Part shown: one piece after another, positions 5,003-7,241 of the stretch
Layout of the letters: each line of letters opens with the position of its first letter
How positions within the stretch are numbered: the stretch's first letter is position 1
NCBI GenBank assembly: GCA_031291395.1
Contig: JARLJD010000013.1
Location: forward strand, 1 to 34,201
DNA length: 34,201 nucleotides
Source of the DNA: Alphaproteobacteria bacterium
GTDB lineage: Bacteria; Pseudomonadota; Alphaproteobacteria; UBA9219
Direction of reading: 5' to 3'
Made by a program: the position numbers and the translations under genes
Notes under the pieces: generated by a model
The model's database searches: none
The model's input: the letters and a program-made list of their open reading frames with translations, nothing else
What the model was told of the DNA's origin: nothing

Positions 5003-5659
5003 TTACGCCGCGATTTTCTTGAACATGTCTTTCCATTCACCGGTCGGCAACTGGGCGAAGGGGCCAGAGGGGGAGCGCCAGAATTTGACGATTTTGGGGA
5101 AGCCGTTGACGTTGCCGCTTTGGCTGCGTACCATATATTTGTCCAAAGGCAGCAAGCGAATGCCCTCCAATTTGGCAATGGCGGCGGGGCGTTCACGGTT
5201 GTTCAGATTTTCATGCAGGACAGTCGCCAGCAAGAAAGGATCGTCGCTGCCGAGGCGCTTTTTGGCCTCGATCCGGCGGGCCGTCAGCGCGTTCAGCGCG
5301 CGCGTCGCCACGTCCGCCATTTCGCCGCCTTCTTCGGCGCGAGCAACGTAAATGGCGCGGGCGATGTGATTAAGCTCGGCTTGGGTGATTTCCGGCAGCC
5401 AGATCAGAACGCCGCTGCCCATCACGCCCGCACGTTCCAGATTCAAGGTCTGCTCGCAGAAACCGCATGCGGTCGCATAGCCGCCTTCGACGGGAACCAC
5501 GCGCTGATATTGACGGGAACGAAAGCCGCAGAAACGACAGGTGAAATCATCACGCGCCAGAATCTTCTCGGTGCCCGCCTTCGACAAAGCGCCCACCGGG
5601 CCTTCGCCCCCGGCGCCGAAAGTCGATCCGACGCCGAGGGTTAGAGGAAGTAAGGACAA
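5003..5659 (-). CDS. icmJ: IcmJ/DotN-like type IVB secretion protein
   Basis: IcmJ (DotN) of the Legionella Dot/Icm system is a small zinc protein that belongs to the coupling complex around DotL and delivers substrates to the channel. This protein has 218 residues, close to the roughly 208 of DotN. It has two CxxC pairs (C41/C44 in TCRFCGF and C65/C68 in ACGFC) after KILARD, the HNH-like zinc fold expected for the family. No signal peptide or membrane segment is visible, consistent with a cytoplasmic subunit. The start is TTG at 5659, only nine bases after the icmD-like stop, with AAGG upstream. It is the third gene of an icmC-icmD-icmJ series; icmB, next in Legionella, is missing. Confidence 0.8.
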   Translation of the reverse strand: MSLLPLTLGVGSTFGAGGEGPVGALSKAGTEKILARDDFTCRFCGFRSRQYQRVVPVEGGYATACGFCEQTLNLERAGVMGSGVLIWLPEITQAELNHIARAIYVARAEEGGEMADVATRALNALTARRIEAKKRLGSDDPFLLATVLHENLNNRERPAAIAKLEGIRLLPLDKYMVRSQSGNVNGFPKIVKFWRSPSGPFAQLPTGEWKDMFKKIAA

Positions 5660-6278: not shown

Positions 6279-7241
6279 TCAATTCAGCAATCCGGTGCCG
6301 AAAGTCGCATCCATAACTTTCAGGAACGCAAAGATATTGATCGCCACAACGCCGCCGAGAATGTGGGTTAATCCCTGCGCCAGCGTAACGTTTCCGCCGC
6401 CCCCTTCGACGACTTTTTTCAGGATCAGCCAGCCGCGCACGAAAGCGATCGCGCCAATGATTTGGACAAACTCCAACCCGGCGTTTATTGCATCTGAAAA
6501 AGATTGCGATGCGCCCATGCTGCCAACTGTAGTCCAATCAATGGCAGACGTAACACTGCTGGTGCCAAAAACTGAAGTCATCATCATGTTCAGATTATCG
6601 CCGATCGTCATCAGCAAAGCGCCGAAACCGATATGAGTCAAAACGCTGTGAATCGAATTGGTCTTGGGATCGAAGCCGTATTTCGACGCTTTCATCAAGC
6701 CGCGCACGATCATGTACAGGCCGCAAAGAATAGCGATTAATGAAATGATCGATATAAGCGGGTCTTTGATGTTGCTAATAAAGCCCGTCATCATTCCGTC
6801 CAGACCCGCCCCGCCATTGCCCGAACTACCACCGGTGCAGGCTAACGTGCCGCCTGCCGTTTGCTGGGTATAAAGGGATCCAACAATGGTGCCAATAAAA
6901 TCAGGCAGCGCCATCAAGCAAGCCGCGCCAAACCACAGCATCAGAGCGCGGTGAAGGGGATTATTGCTGGCATTGTCCGTGTGAAGGCGAAGATGGTGAA
7001 TTCCCTGAACCACAAAGACGGCGCCTGCGCCATAGGCTATCCACGCGAACAGCATGCCAAAGGGTTTGACATTCGGATAGATTGTGCAAAATATGCCGCC
7101 AAGGGTACTGCTGTCGGCCCAAGCCGCGCCGCCAGAACACAGCAAAAAAGTCACCACCAAAGCGGCAATAGCCGGTACAGGGGTTTGTATAAAAACATTG
7201 CTTTTCAACAATTTAAACAATTTTTTCTCCCCATTGCGCAT
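6279..7241 (-). CDS. icmC: IcmC/DotE/DotV-like protein built of three membrane-hairpin units
   Basis: The protein has 320 residues, much longer than Legionella IcmC/DotE (about 190). After a signal-like helix (about residues 20-42) I see three units of the form helix, polar turn, glycine-rich helix. Unit A is about 62-124 (turn HLRLHTDNASNNPLH), B about 160-225 (GLMKASKYGFDPKTNSIH) and C about 256-316 (IAFVRGWLILKK, then GLTHILGGVVAINIF). Unit C carries the RGWL...LTHI-GG pattern of IcmC/DotV; unit A is closest to the icmD-like protein next door. A glycine- and serine-rich linker (about 131-150) separates A from B. It is first in the icmC-icmD-icmJ series. A TTG about eight codons in, preceded by GGAG, is an alternative start. 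Confidence 0.65.
   Translation of the reverse strand: MRNGEKKLFKLLKSNVFIQTPVPAIAALVVTFLLCSGGAAWADSSTLGGIFCTIYPNVKPFGMLFAWIAYGAGAVFVVQGIHHLRLHTDNASNNPLHRALMLWFGAACLMALPDFIGTIVGSLYTQQTAGGTLACTGGSSGNGGAGLDGMMTGFISNIKDPLISIISLIAILCGLYMIVRGLMKASKYGFDPKTNSIHSVLTHIGFGALLMTIGDNLNMMMTSVFGTSSVTSAIDWTTVGSMGASQSFSDAINAGLEFVQIIGAIAFVRGWLILKKVVEGGGGNVTLAQGLTHILGGVVAINIFAFLKVMDATFGTGLLN

Follow-up and report, generated by a model that had tools for sequence, protein, structure and literature searches.

A DotE/IcmC protein with an additional N-terminal DotP-type hairpin in an alphaproteobacterial type IVB secretion system

We analysed a window of 34,201 nucleotides from an alphaproteobacterial genome of the lineage UBA9219 (contig JARLJD010000013.1) and found that one of its genes (6279..7241, reverse strand) encodes a DotE/IcmC (TraQ-type) protein of a type IVB secretion system with three hairpin units, i.e., a two-unit DotE core preceded by a unit of the DotP type. 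This three-unit DotE is real, conserved and undescribed in the open-access literature that we searched, where we found no description of any fused DotE form, yet it extends a known family. The kinship between DotE and DotP is already published, and hence not new.

A DotE core preceded by a DotP-type unit

The open reading frame is real and codes for 320 residues. Profile comparison reveals three related two-helix hairpins, all encoded on the reverse strand, as are the other features of the locus. The protein starts with a hydrophobic segment (residues 1-42; 7115..7241) which, as read from the sequence, resembles a signal peptide: it ends in A-W-A and its hydropathy peaks at residues 16-34. Unit 1 (residues 50-136; 6834..7094) is a DotP/IcmD-type hairpin with the loop HxDNxxxNPL, bracketed by the conserved pair Cys52 (7086..7088) and Cys135 (6837..6839). 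Units 2 (residues 146-232; 6546..6806) and 3 (residues 246-320; 6282..6506) are the first and second hairpins of the DotE/TraQ core, the latter with the F-RG and THI-GG motifs. The linker at residues 126-145 is rich in Gly and Ser and predicted to be disordered. An AlphaFold2 model of modest confidence (mean pLDDT 67) places helical hairpins at residues 47-124, 147-225 and 246-314. The neighbouring genes encode a separate one-unit DotP/IcmD (TraR-type) protein of 131 residues (P0002; 5669..6064) and an IcmJ/DotN of 218 residues (5003..5659, TTG start as called), which matches NF038221 (E 2.8e-25, below the curated cut-off) and, weakly, TraT of ColIb-P9. The order dotE-dotP-icmJ is that of DotE/TraQ systems.

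The units are homologous to DotP. When the whole genome was searched by tblastn with the 320-residue protein, the only matches were itself and P0002 (through residues 31-147, E 3.6e-7), and phmmer with P0002 matched the longer protein twice, at residues 58-137 (iE 4.5e-8) and 145-231 (iE 2.2e-5). We split an alignment of 29 relatives into units 1, 2 and 3, built a DotP profile from 34 DotP-like neighbours, and compared the profiles with hhalign, using as controls reversed columns and, for each pair, 15 shufflings of the columns. Against DotP, the scores were 127 for unit 1 (probability 99.6%), 61 for unit 2 and 46 for unit 3; between units, they were 85 (1 and 2), 51 (1 and 3) and 21 (2 and 3). 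The highest control reached 17.1 overall and 13.6 for the pair of units 2 and 3. The scores against DotP are thus far above the controls, from which we conclude that all three units are related to it, while the direct link between units 2 and 3 (21 against at most 13.6) is weak; the units are connected chiefly via unit 1 and DotP. These scores, together with the three predicted hairpins, uphold the preliminary description of the chain as three related units.

Every unit consists of two hydrophobic helices, which inflates scores, and one could attribute the likeness between units to this common composition, together with the weak direct link between units 2 and 3; the long protein would then be an ordinary DotE extended at the N-terminus by an unrelated segment. 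We regard such convergence as highly improbable: columns of the same composition, shuffled or reversed, never exceeded 17.1, against 46-127 for the comparisons with DotP, and the unit repeats in the five- and six-unit relatives described below, where some of the extra units average 45-47% identity to DotPs from the same lineage.

Unit 1 is the only one to carry the loop motif of DotP (HTDNASNNPL, against HADNPGSNPL in the 131-residue protein) and is closest to this neighbour, a match that had been proposed at the outset and that tblastn, phmmer and profile comparison all confirm. Units 2 and 3, in turn, behave as one protein. Residues 150-315 match the NCBIfam TraQ model NF033883 (175 residues; profile positions 5-173; E 7.7e-12) with 45 bits, which, the curated cut-off being 80 bits, indicates homology without an equivalog call. 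The first 145 residues fall outside the model, which was matched by all 22 three-unit proteins scanned. The TraQ proteins of ColIb-P9 (175 residues) and of a Stenotrophomonas plasmid (177 residues) match the unit profiles twice each, and so do alphaproteobacterial DotE proteins of 205-264 residues. Ordinary DotE/TraQ thus has two units, and the window protein amounts to one DotE/IcmC (TraQ) protein, formed by units 2 and 3 together, with one extra DotP/IcmD (TraR)-type unit at its N-terminus, as judged from these profiles. Its 320 residues and its third unit depart from the length of two-unit DotE/TraQ (about 175-210 residues). Unit 3 had been taken for IcmC by itself: its RGWL and THI-GG motifs are there and correspond to the conserved DotE/TraQ C-terminus, but the match to IcmC/TraQ needs units 2 and 3. 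The suggested trio of DotE, DotP and DotV is therefore not supported: units 2 and 3 are a single DotE, classic DotE/TraQ (175-264 residues) already has two units, and these comparisons gave no sign of DotV. Nor does the fusion merge the separate small proteins: a separate DotP gene is kept, so the fusion adds a unit.

Other searches set the limits of this assignment. The DotP profile matched TraR of ColIb-P9 (E 7e-10, in a small search set), and TraX of the same plasmid gave only noise against the unit profiles (0.5 bits or less). Most Pfam and NCBIfam matches fall under the curated cut-offs; a Pfam scan of the three proteins of the window matched no family, and a sequence search of the PDB with both profiles returned nothing meaningful. 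A survey based on IcmJ, a thin draw of the phylum, yielded no clear Legionella-like genome. An artefact of assembly or gene calling is ruled out, as about 30 genomes, within the order and outside it, contain the same fused gene. Nor do we favour separate translation of the DotE half from M149 or M150, two internal methionines, because two-unit DotE proteins also have the LDxMM motif in an internal position.

The window protein shares with DotE/IcmC of Legionella and TraQ of IncI/IncM plasmids (NF033883) the C-terminal 175 residues, both hairpins, a C-terminus of the F-RG/THI-GG type and a position before dotP/icmJ. It differs from them by the N-terminal DotP-type unit with its conserved flanking cysteines, and in some of its relatives the extra units number three or four. 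Unit 1 shares the hairpin and a loop motif (HxxNPxxxPL) with DotP/IcmD and TraR (the VirB2-like subunit of MPF_I systems), to which it aligns with the score of 127, but it sits inside a DotE chain and an independent DotP is also present.

Distribution and history of the number of units

The number of units varies between proteins: by profile matches, DotP has one, ordinary DotE two, the window protein three, and some relatives five or six, with the two C-terminal units in common and extra ones that are DotP-like. Across the order of the window, the fused form is present in almost all genomes of three families (31-62% identity), and some members have two or three separate DotPs downstream of the fused gene. 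The IcmJ survey, which was not seeded by the fused protein, revealed outside the order two-unit DotEs in six genomes (G078, G202, G249, G121, G441, G644), three-unit ones in four (G167, G132, G133, G077), and a five-unit one of 572 residues in another (G267). Another 39 loci came from scanning GTDB species genomes; most are labelled as Micavibrio sp. or alphaproteobacterial MAGs, and their DotEs have 2, 3, 5 or, in a single case, 6 units. These proportions are biased because the scan was seeded with sequences of the fused type. The 58 non-redundant DotE proteins, from the order and wider Alphaproteobacteria, include forms with 2, 3, 5 or 6 units. The five-unit proteins (541-654 residues; L080:8361-10079, and loci L125, L129-L133, L135-L137, L139-L141 and L143) and the six-unit one (634 residues; L142:4651-6555) are the longest chains in number of units. 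We searched for compensation, i.e., fewer separate DotP genes with longer DotEs, and found no such trend among the scanned loci.

Two observations lie apart from this series. One three-unit DotE (L128:4993-6552) has a Gly-rich N-terminal region of about 240 residues with no recognisable extra hairpin. Plasmid pHW121 (L168:963-1508) and about eight similar plasmids (5-18 kb, mostly mobilizable, enterobacterial) encode an orphan two-unit DotE/TraQ homologue annotated as hypothetical; the pHW121 protein matches the TraQ-core profile (E 2e-21), and this plasmid has no annotated type IVB genes. These orphans might act on a co-resident conjugation system.

The number of units follows the phylogeny of the core. 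In a tree of the core of the 58 proteins, whose root was not inferred, five changes in unit number are needed, against a mean of 21 when the numbers are shuffled. The five- and six-unit proteins placed in it form one group among the three-unit ones (SH-aLRT 98), and two-unit forms are scattered to several places. A tree built from every unit, with only 85 columns over 252 rows and many unresolved forks, offers leads more than proofs. In it, the two C-terminal units cluster according to their position whatever the form, which indicates a shared core. The two outermost units of the five-unit proteins are nearest to DotPs of the same lineage (mean identity 47 and 45%). The unit next to the core has a TLGxxxCN-like start in both the order of the window and the five-unit proteins, which suggests that the third unit may have had a single origin. 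Overall, the origin by duplication and fusion that had been proposed is supported. A bolder reading, which we hold only tentatively, is that type IVB pilin-like subunits were progressively concatenated in one lineage, with DotE chains passing from 2 hairpins to 3, 5 and then 6, so that covalent arcs of several hairpins replaced a ring of separate subunits.

The cysteines around unit 1 are conserved over much of this range. All 27 aligned members of the order have one at window position 52 (55 in two of them) and one at 135. An automatic count found both in 23 of the 26 three-unit proteins that fall outside the sister group, as well as in 12 of the 13 five-unit proteins; the nine three-unit proteins closest to the five-unit clade all lack the pair. 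A periplasmic disulfide between Cys52 and Cys135 would be the natural reading of this pair.

Kinship with pilins and the type IVB machine

Hairpins of this kind have been linked to conjugative pilins. TraQ and TraR were described as distantly homologous members of the VirB2 pilin family (PMC6112013) and are so used in another study (PMC12102498). A 2025 review names TraR as the VirB2 of R64 and lists no equivalent for Dot/Icm (PMC12624023). We found that 14 of 30 DotPs match the Pfam TrbC/VirB2 pilin family (PF04956) at E<1 (best E 8.8e-5), whereas the window's own proteins, DotP included, do not match it. This match and the published kinship lead us to infer that the hairpins are pilin-like. 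Fold searches with the models of the 320-residue protein and DotP against the PDB, and of the former against a viral library, returned only generic helical folds (none at E<0.001); the models being of low confidence (pLDDT 67 and 60), these matches neither support nor exclude a pilin fold. VirB2 is a single hairpin supplied as separate copies, whereas several hairpins are joined here in one DotE chain. A published parallel is that of the Patescibacteria, where VirB2-like units are also multiplied beside a type IV system, in arrays of 2-11 pilin genes (PMC12102498); the copies there are separate genes and not fused in one protein.

The genome of the window carries a broad set of type IVB genes scattered over contigs. 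We identified DotO (contig C185), DotH (C146), a DotG candidate beside DotH (by position only), two DotI in tandem, DotB and DotC together (C27), part of DotL (C161), and three DotA/TraY paralogues, all above the family cut-off (C12:835-2850, C157:4242-6179, C29:9475-11397). One stalk protein (DotA) per machine is usual, and the three paralogues could be alternative stalks or belong to several systems. In total, type IVB genes lie on at least nine contigs (C217, C185, C146, C182, C27, C12, C157, C29, C161), unlike in other families of the order, which keep long type IVB operons. Several relatives have a contiguous run of dotH, dotG, a DotF-like gene, dotE, dotP, icmJ, dotO and dotM. The genome also encodes three MOBP relaxases, on contigs other than those bearing type IVB genes (C7:6268-6639, C174:1862-2206, C113:11334-11675), so the system may move DNA, proteins or both. 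In another genome (G029), a very long open reading frame of at least 4456 residues (L090:3-13370) lies no more than about 15 kb from the type IVB operon. The genome of Micavibrio aeruginosavorus ARL-13 was reported without type IV secretion (PMC3189940), so a tie to predation should not be assumed.

Possible roles of the fused chain

The explanation that we consider probable is that the protein is a DotE (TraQ) with an N-terminal DotP/TraR-type hairpin, a pilin-like inner-membrane chain that fixes the order and ratio of its hairpins; the anatomy can be read from the sequence, the role would follow from it. Each unit would be a VirB2-pilin-like membrane hairpin with periplasmic ends and a cytoplasmic polar loop, and the chain would belong to the inner-membrane platform, next to DotP and the DotA stalk. 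Through the fusion, a DotP-type hairpin would stay adjacent to DotE in fixed order and ratio, the putative Cys52-Cys135 disulfide would brace the added unit, and the separate DotP would supply further hairpins able to polymerise. The fixed stoichiometry raised in the preliminary description is possible in these terms. Against this explanation count that the unit numbers 2, 3, 5 and 6 match no single symmetry and that longer DotEs are not accompanied by fewer separate DotP genes.

Two other roles seem unlikely, to a similar degree. The chain could be made whole and then cut into DotP-like and DotE subunits as in Legionella, the fusion ensuring only their equal numbers; signal-peptide-like N-termini with A-x-A sites on DotP and DotE, pilin-type processing by analogy, and the Gly/Ser-rich linker with its predicted disorder would all fit such a precursor. 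However, a signal-like segment with A-x-A is missing before unit 2, the cysteines bracket unit 1 with C135 inside the linker, which suggests that the unit stays folded in the chain, and most relatives keep a separate DotP gene. Alternatively, unit 1 could remain outside the channel or pilus as a membrane anchor or an assembly adaptor that recruits the separate DotP to DotE. The separate DotP gene does adjoin that of DotE in nearly all loci, and, of the three positions in the three-unit proteins that fall outside the sister group, that of unit 1 has diverged most (mean identity 28%, against 37-48% for units 2 and 3). But the loop motif of DotP and the hairpin architecture are preserved in unit 1, and an anchor would have no need for the two or three further units of this kind that relatives have acquired.

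Few components of type IVB systems are as poorly understood as DotE and DotP. The natural series of fused proteins indicates that hairpins of the DotP and DotE types can lie directly next to each other in a preferred order, and probably do, and it provides locked forms for structural study. If progressive concatenation is true, the sequence would reveal in which order and symmetry the DotE/DotP layer is arranged, and free polymerisation of the concatenated hairpins would be ruled out. The series also traces the descent of DotE and DotP from one pilin-like unit, with parts of a machine arising via duplication and fusion.
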